The translations under genes and the position numbers were made by a program. A DNA stretch of 45,778 bases from Parcubacteria group bacterium (GTDB lineage: Bacteria; Patescibacteriota; JABMPQ01). The notes beneath the pieces were generated by a model. The model did no database searches. It was not told where the DNA came from and worked only from the letters and a program-made list of their open reading frames with translations. Each line of letters starts with the position of its first letter. Within the stretch, counting starts at the first letter, position 1. The stretch covers positions 1-45,778 of the forward strand of contig JABMPQ010000012.1 in NCBI GenBank assembly GCA_013202585.1, given 5' to 3'. Of the stretch, positions 37,847 to 44,997 are shown piece by piece.

Positions 37847-37853
37847 GTTGCTT

Positions 37854-37907
37854 GGGCCGCTAGCCTGCCTGCCGGCAGGCAGGCTCATTTGGTTAGTTGT
37901 TACAACT
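37854..37907 (+). pseudogene. 5' fragment of tRNA-Ala (nt 1-20) interrupted by P1 palindrome
   Basis: gggccgctag[cctgcctgccggcaggcagg]ctcatttggt then agttgttacaact hairpin, 55 bp upstream of the intact tRNA-Ala. Confidence 0.9.
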
Positions 37908-38010: not shown

Positions 38011-38790
38011 ATGGCTAAAATGGAAATCGTCGAAGAGAAAAAATCTGGTGCTTGGAAAGTTGTACTAGCAATTTTTCTAACCACTATTATTATCGGTGGG
38101 GCAGCTGGAGCCGGCGCTTTCTTTTGGCAGCAAATGGAGATCGATAACCAGAAGTCTGACAAGGATCAGCTTGGCAAAGATAAAGATGGCCTGGCGCAGA
38201 AAGCCACCGAGTTAGAGAATGAAATGACGAGCTATAAAACTGCTGAAGAGACTGCTACAAAGAAAAGCTTAGAGTTAACTCCAGGAGTCTTGTGGCTCGA
38301 TGCTTATAAGAATTCTTCTTGTCTCGGTGATACCTATATAAATGGAGTGGTACAAAGCAACCAAGATAAAGATATCACATATTTTGCTACCTCAACTACA
38401 TCGTATTATGGTGATATAACAGATTCGACCTGTGTTGTTGGTGGCATTGAAGAGGTTAATTATAAAAATTCTATCACTAAAGTATACTCACAAAAGTATG
38501 CCAGCGTAGACATTCTTAGCGGTGACGAAACCAAGGAAATATCTTCCTCAGAACGAGAAGGCCAAATGTATCAGCTTATTGGCACAGAAGGAGACAAGCT
38601 AATATTTATAGATAGAAGCTCTGACGTGGATAATTCACCTGGCCCTTGTGTAAATTTATGGACAGAAGGACGTCACTATTCGCTAGATTTGAATGATGTT
38701 ACCGCTGGTATGAAGGAATATACTGTTCCCGATGGGGAATTGTTGGAGCAGGAAAAGAAGAGAGTAGAAGAATGCTCGGCGGAAATTTAG
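38011..38790 (+). CDS. Hypothetical membrane-anchored protein
   Basis: 259 aa, N-terminal TM then coiled coil and extracellular domain. Confidence 0.7.
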   Translation: MAKMEIVEEKKSGAWKVVLAIFLTTIIIGGAAGAGAFFWQQMEIDNQKSDKDQLGKDKDGLAQKATELENEMTSYKTAEETATKKSLELTPGVLWLDAYKNSSCLGDTYINGVVQSNQDKDITYFATSTTSYYGDITDSTCVVGGIEEVNYKNSITKVYSQKYASVDILSGDETKEISSSEREGQMYQLIGTEGDKLIFIDRSSDVDNSPGPCVNLWTEGRHYSLDLNDVTAGMKEYTVPDGELLEQEKKRVEECSAEI

Positions 38791-38846
38791 ACATACTTCT
38801 AAGCTAAGGTGCTGACTTTTGGTGTTAGCCAAGCATCTTGTTATTT

Positions 38847-39009
38847 GGGTTCGTAGCCTGCCTGCCGGCAGGCAGGCTCAGTTGTCCCGATGTTTCATCC
38901 CGATTTCATCGGGATAGAAAAATCGAGGATCCTCGGTTTTGCACGAAATCGTAGATTTCGGCAAAATCGGGAGCAGAGCGCTCCGATGGACATCGGAGAG
39001 GTCACAGGT
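38847..39009 (+). pseudogene. tRNA-Val-like copy interrupted by several palindromes
   Basis: gggttcgtag|P1|ctcagttg|88-bp hairpin-rich insert|gcagagcg|ctccgatggacatcggag|aggtcacaggt aligns piecewise to the intact tRNA-Val nt 1-54. Confidence 0.85.
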
Positions 39010-39059
39010 CTGTGTTTTACAGTTTTTTGCCATTGCCCAAAGTACGTTGATGATTATGT

Positions 39060-39135
39060 GGGTTCGTAGCTCAGTTGGCAGAGCGTTTGCTCGACACGCA
39101 AAAGGTCACAGGTTCGAATCCTGTCGGACCCACCA
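39060..39135 (+). tRNA. tRNA-Val(GAC), atypical C33
   Basis: 76 nt cloverleaf; acceptor GGGTTCG/CGGACCC, anticodon stem TTTGC/GCAAA, loop TCGACAC, encoded CCA. Confidence 0.9.
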
Positions 39136-39163
39136 TCAATTTATTGTAAATAATTTTAACTTT

Positions 39164-39805
39164 ATGTCGCCAGAAAGAGGGGATGCAATAGAGCAGGAGA
39201 TGGAGATGGACGAAGGTACAGAAGAAATGGATAGAGGAGAATATTACCGGCGCGTGCGAGAAGCCAATCGCACGATAGAAGGAAGAGGAGAAAAAGAGAT
39301 CAGTGCTGATGATTTTGAAAGGCAATATCTCAGCGTGCTTAATAGGGGTTCGACCGAACCAACAGATGACCCTTATCAAAATTTTGAATCGCGAACTATT
39401 TTTGAATATTTTAAAGAAAGAGATCCGGACTTTCTTCGAGATGCTTATCGAGCGATGGAAATGGTTGCGCAGAAGCTTCGCAGCGAAAGAGATGAGTATG
39501 AAGAGGCAAATAATGGAATTATTAGGCTGCTTAGGGAAGGAAAAAGACTAAATGAAATAGGTAGGCATGATGAAGCCGATGCCCTTGGGGACGAGAGGGA
39601 TGCCTTGCTCAAAAGAATGAAAGAGATAAAAAAGCCCATTCACGCTATATCTTCTAATTTTGGCGGCTTAGCTCATCGAATAAGTGATGATGATGTATCT
39701 CCGATGCGGGAAAATGGCTTAAAAATCCGCGTCGGACGAATTATCGATGAGTATACTGACAACGAAGGGCGAGTTTTAGAAGAAGCCACTATAACGGACT
39801 CTTAA
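39164..39805 (+). CDS. Hypothetical acidic coiled-coil protein
   Basis: Start reset to MSPERGDAIEQEMEM after the tRNA; the supplied ORF N-terminus reads through tRNA-Val. Confidence 0.6.
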   Translation: MSPERGDAIEQEMEMDEGTEEMDRGEYYRRVREANRTIEGRGEKEISADDFERQYLSVLNRGSTEPTDDPYQNFESRTIFEYFKERDPDFLRDAYRAMEMVAQKLRSERDEYEEANNGIIRLLREGKRLNEIGRHDEADALGDERDALLKRMKEIKKPIHAISSNFGGLAHRISDDDVSPMRENGLKIRVGRIIDEYTDNEGRVLEEATITDS

Positions 39806-42185: not shown

Positions 42186-42941
42186 TTAAATATTCCTAAG
42201 ACGCTTGTTGCTGATTCTAATATAATCAGGATTCAATTCAATTCCTATAAAATCGCGACCATTTTTCTTAGCACTTACACATTCACTCCCAGAACCTGCA
42301 AATGGTACAAATACCATGTCCCCTTTGTTCGAGAAATGTCTTATTATTCGATCGCAGATGGCAATAGGTTTTTGAGTGGGATGATCAACTCTCTCCTTTG
42401 CAAAACTTTTTCCGGCTAGCACTGGTATGCACCATACGTCTCCTACGTGCTTACCTTCCGGATTAGGTTTCCATTCTTTACCATTTTTAGTGATTTTATA
42501 TTTCAGTCGTTCTGTACTTTCATACGCTTCACGTATAGGATGATATGTAAATTTTTTGCCTTTATAAAACCAAAGAAGCGGTTCATAATTCCCCGGGGGT
42601 AATTTGGTATATCCAGACCAGTTATTTTTATAATGCCACACTAATTGGCGACCATAGGTAAGTCCAAGATCATACAAATAGCATTGCACATATCCGATGT
42701 TATGGTGGATGCCGTATACAAATATTGATCCTCCTGATTTTAACACTCTATGGGCTTCTTCCAGCCATTCCTGCATCCATACCATCCACTTATCGTGTTT
42801 ATCGAGGCCCCATTTTTCTTTACCCCCAAAATCCATTTCGATTCCGTAAGGAGGATCGGCAATTATTAAGTCAATCGATTCATCATCGATTTTTTTAATT
42901 AACTTAAGGGTATCTCCTTCGTAGATCTTATTTTTTTTCAT
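42186..42941 (-). CDS. DNA methyltransferase, beta-class-like (DPPY first, FAGSGS last)
   Basis: LIIADPPYGIEMDFGG ... HPTQKPIAICDRIIRHFSNKGDMVFVPFAGSGSECVSAKKNGRDFIGIEL. Confidence 0.93.
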   Translation of the reverse strand: MKKNKIYEGDTLKLIKKIDDESIDLIIADPPYGIEMDFGGKEKWGLDKHDKWMVWMQEWLEEAHRVLKSGGSIFVYGIHHNIGYVQCYLYDLGLTYGRQLVWHYKNNWSGYTKLPPGNYEPLLWFYKGKKFTYHPIREAYESTERLKYKITKNGKEWKPNPEGKHVGDVWCIPVLAGKSFAKERVDHPTQKPIAICDRIIRHFSNKGDMVFVPFAGSGSECVSAKKNGRDFIGIELNPDYIRISNKRLRNI

Positions 42942-44451
42942 ATTTTTTCGGCTCTGAGATTTCTTTATTTTGAAGAATAAGAATATATTGATGATGGATG
43001 TTGGGTACGTATGAATAAGGATAACCGTATGGAAATATTTTTTTGTGGCGCTGATATAATATAGTTATTCCTTTTAATGCGAAATTACCTAATTCAAGTT
43101 TTTGTGCCAAGTCAGAATGAAACATATACAGCCTACCTTTATGCCTAAAATCACTTACAATCACACAAAGATATTTTTTAGGTTTCAATATCCTACTGCA
43201 GTCATTAAAAAATCCCGAAAGAATATCAATGAACTTATCATAATTATCAATATTACCAAGATCATTTTTTAGATTTGAATAGTTAGTATCTAAATTATTA
43301 GCTACTCTTTCTTGTTTGACCTTATGATCTGCTTTTTTATTTAGTATATTCCAATAAGGTGGGCTTGTAACAATAAAATCAAAATAATCATCTTCAAATT
43401 CTTGAATTTTCTTTAAAGAGTCACCACGTATAATCTTTTGATTTCTATTAGTCGTACTAAACAAGTCATCATTTAATTCTTTCTGCAGACGTTCTTTCGT
43501 AAGATCAACATACTTCTTTACCAGCTCAATACCAACGCCTTCTCTACTGTTTACTGCACAAGCTTTCAGTGTTGAGCTAACTCCACTAAAGGGATCCAGA
43601 ACACGTTGGCCTTTTTTAGTAAAAAATTTAATCAATCTCCCAACATCTTGAAATGAAAATGGAGCGGGATGCTGTCTTTCGATTTTTGTATCTTCATGAT
43701 TAGCACCTAATCCTTTTTGAGTGAATACTGAAATAGTTTCTTGAATCCATTCTTGTCCAGTAAGATCATTTAATTTATTTATTAATTTTCTTTTCGAAGT
43801 TTTTTTCTTTGGAGATATGACTTTATCACTAGTATCCATCTCATACGCTGGCGTTGTTTTATTTCGAATCACGTCCAAAACAACCCCCTGTATTTCAAAA
43901 GGAGTATTTCTTTTAATAATTATTGGCTCTATAGTTTTATTTGCTGGTTGAAGTCGTATCCGACCATGCTCTTTGTAAAACTTTTTCAAGGTTGCCTCTT
44001 GGTTATTAATCAACGCAACAACTTTTTGACCATTTTCCGCAAAACTTTGATGCTTAACCAAAACAACATCATTATCATATATATTCTCGTCAATCATACT
44101 ATCACCGACTACACGCAACGCATAGATACTTGAAGTTGTCCTCAGCCTATTTTTGGGGATAGTTATTGTTTCTTTCTCACGAACTGCCTCAATCGGCTGA
44201 CCAGCAGCAATGGAACCCAACAATGGAATCCTTATCATTGCTCCATCATCAATTACGTTAATAGAGCGCGGCTTGTTTTTTTCCTTTGCTAAGTACCCTA
44301 AATCACGAAGTTTAGAAATATGAAAATGCGCCGTAGAAACAGACGCTAATTTAAACTTTTTTCTTATCTCCTCAAGTGCAGGAGAATATCCTTTTCGCTT
44401 TTGATAACCTTTTACGAAATCAAAAACCTCTTTTTGACGTTTTGTAAGCAT
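42928..44451 (-). CDS. LexA repressor (HTH + S24 peptidase) fused to SPPY DNA methyltransferase
   Basis: aa 1-~200: full LexA (KLASVSTAHFHISKLRDLGY HTH, IAA-GQP cleavage site, VVGDSM Ser118, ATLKKF Lys156). aa ~220-507: DPFSGVSSTLKACAV...GIEL and TSPPYWN. Confidence 0.93.
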   Translation of the reverse strand: MLTKRQKEVFDFVKGYQKRKGYSPALEEIRKKFKLASVSTAHFHISKLRDLGYLAKEKNKPRSINVIDDGAMIRIPLLGSIAAGQPIEAVREKETITIPKNRLRTTSSIYALRVVGDSMIDENIYDNDVVLVKHQSFAENGQKVVALINNQEATLKKFYKEHGRIRLQPANKTIEPIIIKRNTPFEIQGVVLDVIRNKTTPAYEMDTSDKVISPKKKTSKRKLINKLNDLTGQEWIQETISVFTQKGLGANHEDTKIERQHPAPFSFQDVGRLIKFFTKKGQRVLDPFSGVSSTLKACAVNSREGVGIELVKKYVDLTKERLQKELNDDLFSTTNRNQKIIRGDSLKKIQEFEDDYFDFIVTSPPYWNILNKKADHKVKQERVANNLDTNYSNLKNDLGNIDNYDKFIDILSGFFNDCSRILKPKKYLCVIVSDFRHKGRLYMFHSDLAQKLELGNFALKGITILYQRHKKIFPYGYPYSYVPNIHHQYILILQNKEISEPKKYEKK

Positions 44452-44559: not shown

Positions 44560-44997
44560 ATGGGAAATAAAAAAGAAGTTTTTGTAAGTTTTGACTACGA
44601 AAACGATAAACATTATAAATATCTCTTAGAGGCGTGGGATGCAAATGATGAATTTGATTTTGTTTTTAGCGACAAAACCCCGACTGAAATTAACAGCGAA
44701 AACATTGAGCCAATTAAAGCAGGGCTTACAAAAAAAATCAAAGAGGCAACTCATACTTTGGTAATAGTTGGCGAAGAAGCCAACTATCAGCATAGTAACC
44801 ACGAGTTAATTGGCTACAAGAACTGGATTAATTTTGAAGTAGCCAAGAGCATAGAAGACGGGAACAGAATCGCTGTCGTAAGACTTGAAAATAACTACAC
44901 GCTTCCTGAAGAAATCCACGAAGGCGAATATTCTATTGTAGAAGGATACACAGAAAGTAATATAATCGATGTTCTGGACAACGCTCCAGAAAATTAA
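44560..44997 (+). CDS. ThsB/DUF1863-like TIR-fold protein
   Basis: VFVSFDYENDKHYKYLLEAWDANDEFDFVFSDKTP...IKEATHTLVIVGEEA...WINFEVAKSIEDGNRIAVVRL. Confidence 0.85.
   Translation: MGNKKEVFVSFDYENDKHYKYLLEAWDANDEFDFVFSDKTPTEINSENIEPIKAGLTKKIKEATHTLVIVGEEANYQHSNHELIGYKNWINFEVAKSIEDGNRIAVVRLENNYTLPEEIHEGEYSIVEGYTESNIIDVLDNAPEN

Follow-up and report, generated by a model that had tools for sequence, protein, structure and literature searches.

Introduction

tRNA genes are essential, and the elements thought able to enter them safely are chiefly those that splice out and those that restore the 3′ end of the gene. Elements of the atp6 type in Allomyces mitochondria bring an endonuclease open reading frame (ORF) into a gene along with a spare gene end, leaving the host gene whole and a remnant behind. 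In phage T6, cleavage within tRNA genes by SegB, a free-standing GIY-YIG homing endonuclease, leads to tandem amplification of tRNA-Tyr, and in T-even phages the 5′ end of the tRNA and the 3′ end of segB share microhomology (PMC13096335). Insertions in rRNA genes of CPR bacteria lie at the tops or bases of rRNA stem-loops, with LAGLIDADG and some GIY-YIG ORFs and many short insertions that have no ORF (PMC11270868); a search of that paper returned no mention of tRNA. Rickettsia palindromic elements and REP elements are short dispersed palindromes, some of which lie inside genes (PMC3733652).

Here we describe tRNA genes that stand behind hairpin-filled remnants of themselves, an arrangement for which we found no report in the open-access papers searched.

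Broken tRNA copies in the window

The window is the whole stretch of DNA analysed, 45,778 nucleotides from a Parcubacteria group bacterium whose genome is a metagenome-derived draft of 78 contigs. In it, an intact tRNA-Val gene is preceded by ordered pieces of the same tRNA (positions are those of the window).

38847–38856, forward strand: broken copy, tRNA-Val nt 1–10 (gggttcgtag); from sequence and the ordered-word test
38857–38876, no strand: 20-bp perfect palindrome CCTGCCTGCCGGCAGGCAGG of a dispersed family, also at the same place in other broken tRNA copies
38877–38884, forward strand: broken copy, tRNA-Val nt 11–18; from sequence and the ordered-word test
38885–38972, no strand: 88-bp D-loop insert with nested hairpins and ends TCCCGAT/ATCGGGA; fold z = −6.8
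38973–38980, forward strand: broken copy, tRNA-Val nt 19–26; from sequence and the ordered-word test
38981–38998, no strand: hairpin CTCCGATGGACATCGGAG, 18 nt, replacing the 17-nt anticodon arm; from sequence
38999–39009, forward strand: broken copy, tRNA-Val nt 44–54, ending in the T-loop; from sequence and the ordered-word test
39010–39059, forward strand: spacer between the broken copy and the intact tRNA, without an ORF and containing CTGTGTTTTACAGTTTTTT, terminator-like by eye
39060–39135, forward strand: intact tRNA-Val (GAC); from tRNA annotation and Rfam

An earlier note on this DNA had proposed that these four pieces of tRNA-Val (nt 1–10, 11–18, 19–26 and 44–54, at 38847–39009) occur in order, and this is borne out by an ordered-word chain score of 37, where the highest value among 5000 dinucleotide shuffles was 24. 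The same flank scored with the genome's other tRNAs reached at most 18. The 88-bp insert with its TCCCGAT/ATCGGGA ends and three inner palindromes is as the note described it, and every gap between the Val pieces is indeed filled by a hairpin. However, the copy is not near full-length as had been claimed: it comprises only a 5′ part, nt 1–54, and lacks nt 55–76. A hairpin does occupy the anticodon-arm position, but it replaces the arm rather than interrupting it. The first palindrome fits equally well at 9/10 or, one base later, at 10/11.

Between the broken and intact copies at the Val locus there is no ORF and no relic of one. Rfam, searched at E ≤ 1 over 38700–39300, returned the intact tRNA plus two weak matches below threshold, with no intron and no non-tRNA family; a group I or group II intron in the tRNA was rejected on this result.

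The next tRNA upstream presents a second case.

37849–37893, forward strand: broken tRNA-Ala, nt 1–20, with the same palindrome (37864–37883) at the same tRNA position; from the ordered-word test, with an upstream flank that matches the one before the single intact tRNA-Ala of a same-genus genome
37909–37984, forward strand: intact tRNA-Ala (TGC), the next tRNA upstream of Val

Again, neither an ORF nor an ORF relic was found between the copies. An integrative element with a tRNA att site, marked by a repeated tRNA 3′ end and an integrase, fits neither locus, because the repeat at Val and Ala is a 5′ part and no ORF lies between copies. Elsewhere in this genome the broken Met, Arg-CCT, Ala-GGC and Lys tRNAs also carry CCTGCCTGCCGGCAGGCAGG there, exact or slightly altered. 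A hairpin like CTCCGATGGACATCGGAG recurs at the anticodon-arm place in the Ala-GGC and Lys copies and in Roseivirga. The 20-bp palindrome is dispersed through the genome, with 48 forward matches (at most 2 mismatches) versus none for a reversed control.

Three further features of the window are recorded here. Position 33 of tRNAs is almost universally U; the tRNA-Val (GAC) of the window has C at this position (39092), as it has in three compared genomes (G001, G003 and G005), and T is found in G002. In the ORF at 42928–44451 a LexA-type repressor, with its DNA-binding domain and S24 peptidase domain, is fused to an N6/N4 DNA methyltransferase. Downstream of the tRNA pair, a gene at 44560–44997 that adjoins DNA methyltransferase genes encodes a protein with a TIR-like ThsB (Thoeris) domain.

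Distribution of broken copies

The ordered-word test was applied, without use of the palindrome, to all tRNA flanks in three genomes of the order. Ordered 5′ copies of at least 20 nt were found upstream of the same tRNA at 13 of 121 tRNAs, compared with 9 of 4620 mismatched controls. A spliced-alignment test gave 27 of 378 flanks with a score of at least 30 and 2 of 756 controls. Two further genomes of the order had no broken copy at any tRNA. A search of 85,488 species genomes for TAG-palindrome-CTCA returned 15 matches, in Bacteroidota, Omnitrophota and Patescibacteria. In all 15 an intact tRNA follows directly, and the palindrome is flanked by the 5′ part of that same tRNA. Within the Roseivirga family (Bacteroidota) the pattern is present in 7 of 120 genomes, and two Roseivirga genomes keep the layout with the anticodon-arm stem retained and its loop altered. 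The doubt that the fragment matches might be chance and confined to this locus, which the earlier note had raised against itself, is thus clearly dispelled: other tRNAs and genomes have the arrangement, and the shuffles are exceeded. The draft state of the metagenome-derived assembly might suggest an artefact. Nonetheless, artefact and chance deserve practically no weight and were rejected on the shuffles, the mismatched controls and the spliced-alignment controls, and the same anatomy appears in independent assemblies from several phyla, one of which is titled Roseivirga sp. E12 and not as a MAG.

The broken stretch at Val has a predicted fold of −85.3 kcal/mol (z = −6.1). A fold of this strength, together with the layout kept in the two Roseivirga genomes, would suit a functional leader RNA whose structure builds on a tRNA scaffold, serving for example in tRNA processing or control. 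Such a role is very improbable given that the pattern is absent from the Ala–Val locus of the same-genus genome (which has no broken copy before either gene), from all tRNAs of the two further genomes and from most of the Roseivirga family, and given that Rfam recognizes no family there except tRNA. A conserved structured RNA was rejected because the copy is missing in the same-genus genome and its distribution is patchy; the earlier note's suggestion of a structured RNA evolved from a tRNA therefore lacks support.

Remnants follow a polarity, in that copies upstream of a tRNA are 5′ parts and copies downstream are 3′ parts. Both kinds surround a single intact tRNA at Tyr (L215), Thr (L198, L118 and L092), Lys (L057) and Arg (L088), which places the intact gene as nested within the broken one. 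Break points fall mostly in the D-, anticodon and T-loops.

Ancestral and inserted copies

The earlier note could not explain where the redundant copy came from. Comparison with the same-genus genome shows the broken copy in the ancestral tRNA position and the intact tRNA as the newcomer. At six loci (Ala-TGC of the window, Arg-CCT, Met, Ala-GGC, Ile and Leu-CAA), DNA before the single intact tRNA of one genome matches DNA before the broken copy of the other, with z from 7.8 to 28; at Leu-CAA it is the same-genus genome that holds the filled allele. The DNA between the broken and intact copies had no match at these loci, and at Ala-GGC both outer flanks are conserved. Filled and empty alleles therefore occur at the same sites, and the upstream match implies that the broken copy sits at the ancestral place and that the stretch running through the start of the new tRNA was inserted. 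At Val the gene before the tRNA has decayed in the same-genus genome, so that this flank gives neither a clear match nor a clear mismatch.

Broken copies could instead be scars of tandem duplication, in which a tRNA gene that broke in one of its loops was rejoined to DNA upstream of a sister copy and so left a partial 5′ tRNA ahead of the intact gene, with palindromes arriving later and GIY-YIG genes (see below) drawn to tRNAs for other reasons. The concentration of break points in the three loops is what this would produce, and tandem arrays do exist: two to three partial 5′ copies with identical spacers precede Met, Arg and Val tRNAs in Bacteroidota (L133, L137 and L140), and the tRNA-Ser of the same-genus genome likewise has repeated 5′ copies with identical spacers. 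However, only in these four plain arrays does the DNA upstream of the broken copy recur ahead of the intact tRNA, and at most loci simple tandem duplication is therefore disfavoured. Duplication also fits poorly with 5′ and 3′ remnants on either side of one intact tRNA (Tyr L215, Thr L198, Lys and Thr-GGC) and with a broken copy at the ancestral position followed by unmatched DNA. We regard it as rather unlikely to be the general explanation.

Endonuclease genes at tRNA loci

A GIY-YIG ORF of about 80 residues lies between the broken copy and the intact tRNA at Lys, Ala-GGC and Gln-TTG in this genome and at many other loci; the Val and Ala-TGC loci have no such domain. The catalytic Tyr/Tyr/Gly/Arg/His/Glu are invariant, and four of the five GIY-YIG copies in this genome are at tRNAs. 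Among the best 30 GIY-YIG loci of the phylum, fetched from 118 genomes, 18 have a tRNA within about 210 bp, on the same strand in all 18 cases. The tRNA mostly follows directly behind the ORF, and at most loci the broken 5′ copy of that same tRNA stands before it. In Roseivirga and at Lys the end of the ORF falls inside tRNA-derived sequence. Two of the five genomes compared (G003 and G005) have neither broken copies nor tRNA-linked GIY-YIG genes. The proteins sort only weakly by tRNA type, and a strict pairing of GIY-YIG lineage with tRNA type was rejected for this reason.

Some details of these and other tRNA-side genes were also noted. GIY-YIG frames at L143, L130 and L057 run into tRNA D-arm sequence and stop there at the TAG that precedes AGC. 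An HNH endonuclease ORF lies directly upstream of tRNA-Leu, an ORF with a helix-turn-helix domain precedes tRNA-Trp, and ORFs with, by eye, a similar N-terminus precede tRNA-Phe (L049 1237–1752, L051 646–1320 and L048 1853–2528). Other nuclease families may use the same tRNA-side niche.

Hairpin and palindrome inserts

Nearly all remnants examined in detail contain a hairpin, with few exceptions. Across the surveyed loci, 30 of 39 inserts lie in a tRNA loop, loop edge or junction, compared with an expectation of half, and the median z of their folds is −3.1; a hairpin insert in a loop is one of two marks of an rRNA-type intervening sequence, the other being its removal from the RNA by RNase III. 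The site that palindromes occupy most often, 10/11, is not a loop but a junction or the base of a stem. Away from tRNAs, a stem of 5 bp or more flanks 6 of 19 palindromes and places them in its loop, versus 4.6% expected. Judging from these positions, the inserts look like mobile mini-elements that seek hairpin loops. The earlier note's proposal that palindromes were repeatedly inserted into a redundant tRNA copy gains support here, given that the palindrome is dispersed and recurs at the same tRNA position, and that inserts favour loops and junctions.

No constant GTAG or CGTC tag was found beside the dispersed palindromes away from tRNAs, and no Y1 (RAYT-type) transposase (PF01797) was found in this genome or in the same-genus genome, which is 100% complete. 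Mobilisation of the REP/RAYT kind was rejected on these two results.

Two further observations concern insert placement. In the 3′ copies of four tRNAs, Met, Lys, Arg and Thr (L095, L090, L046 and L118), one and the same T-loop position is taken by a 30–31 nt double hairpin, TCACCCTACGGGTGA-CCACCCGTAGGGTGG, or a variant of it. Like the coding palindromes of Rickettsia, the 20-bp palindrome also lies inside long open frames, at 1119–1138 of the window (1199 codons open) and at 609–628 of L027 (278 codons open), the latter frame being KsgA-like by eye.

Loop-seeking mobile palindromes might themselves have been the agents, striking tRNAs such that only cells with a duplicated tRNA survived, with the GIY-YIG ORF as a passenger. 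Such an origin would account for the recurrence of one palindrome at one tRNA position across several tRNAs and phyla, for palindromes in hairpin loops elsewhere and for the hairpin in nearly every remnant. It leaves the ORF between copies at many loci unexplained, and it has no known mobiliser given the missing Y1 transposase. We consider it improbable.

Origin of the broken copies

We lean, by a small measure, toward the hypothesis of homing-type "insert-and-rescue" elements, which would enter tRNA genes with a replacement in tow and leave a remnant that then collects palindromes. In its favour are the recurrence of the remnants, their ancestral position at six loci, the loop preference of the inserts, the GIY-YIG ORFs beside tRNAs and the precedent of SegB. 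The broken copy would be the 5′ part of a formerly serving tRNA-Val gene. A selfish insertion would have split this resident tRNA in a loop while bringing a complete tRNA or the missing part, such that an intact gene was regenerated behind it. The likely agent would be a small homing-type endonuclease of the GIY-YIG family with tRNA genes as its target; repair would then insert the endonuclease gene along with a spare tRNA or part of one, and the cell would keep a working tRNA. At Val and Ala-TGC the ORF would have been lost or never have been present and, since it is absent at Val, an endonuclease is proposed as the cause there by analogy. The remnant, freed from selection, would gather dispersed and presumably mobile palindromic mini-elements that prefer hairpin loops and junctions.

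The near-universal presence of hairpins in remnants is not predicted by plain neglect and is the weakest point of this model. The missing ORF at Val and Ala-TGC, the weak sorting of GIY-YIG proteins by tRNA type, the commonest palindrome site lying outside a loop and the four tandem arrays also count against it. The hairpin may be part of the insertion event itself. Tentatively, and with less confidence, we suggest a broader possibility: that intron-less homing elements which rescue tRNA genes with a fresh tRNA are widespread in bacterial chromosomes, that mobile palindromes additionally invade the loops of folded nucleic acids, tRNA loops included, and that the hairpin is possibly an obligate part of the element and not later debris.

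If the insert-and-rescue hypothesis is correct, the selfish gene, by splitting a tRNA and providing its replacement, would act as a natural home-and-rescue element. The hypothesis would also explain the many small GIY-YIG genes beside tRNAs in Patescibacteria and the litter of tRNA fragments in these genomes. The preference of palindromes for hairpin loops makes movement of the mini-elements testable, with single-stranded DNA, cruciforms or RNA as candidate targets.

Comparison with known systems

The Allomyces atp6 case concerns a protein gene in fungal mitochondria, whereas the genes here are bacterial tRNA genes. As in the SegB system, a GIY-YIG gene adjoins tRNA genes and ORF ends run into tRNA sequence. 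However, SegB belongs to phages, for which broken, hairpin-filled tRNA halves are not reported, and here an intact chromosomal tRNA stands behind its own remnant. Rickettsia palindromic elements and REP elements are unrelated in sequence to the palindromes described here, which have no constant GTAG or CGTC tag and no accompanying Y1 transposase. The CPR rRNA insertions come from the same bacterial group but concern rRNA, and the available text reports no rescue copy (PMC11270868). The pattern is little described; it resembles both free-standing homing endonucleases and the CPR rRNA insertions, and differs from them by its rescue copy and its hairpin-filled remnant.
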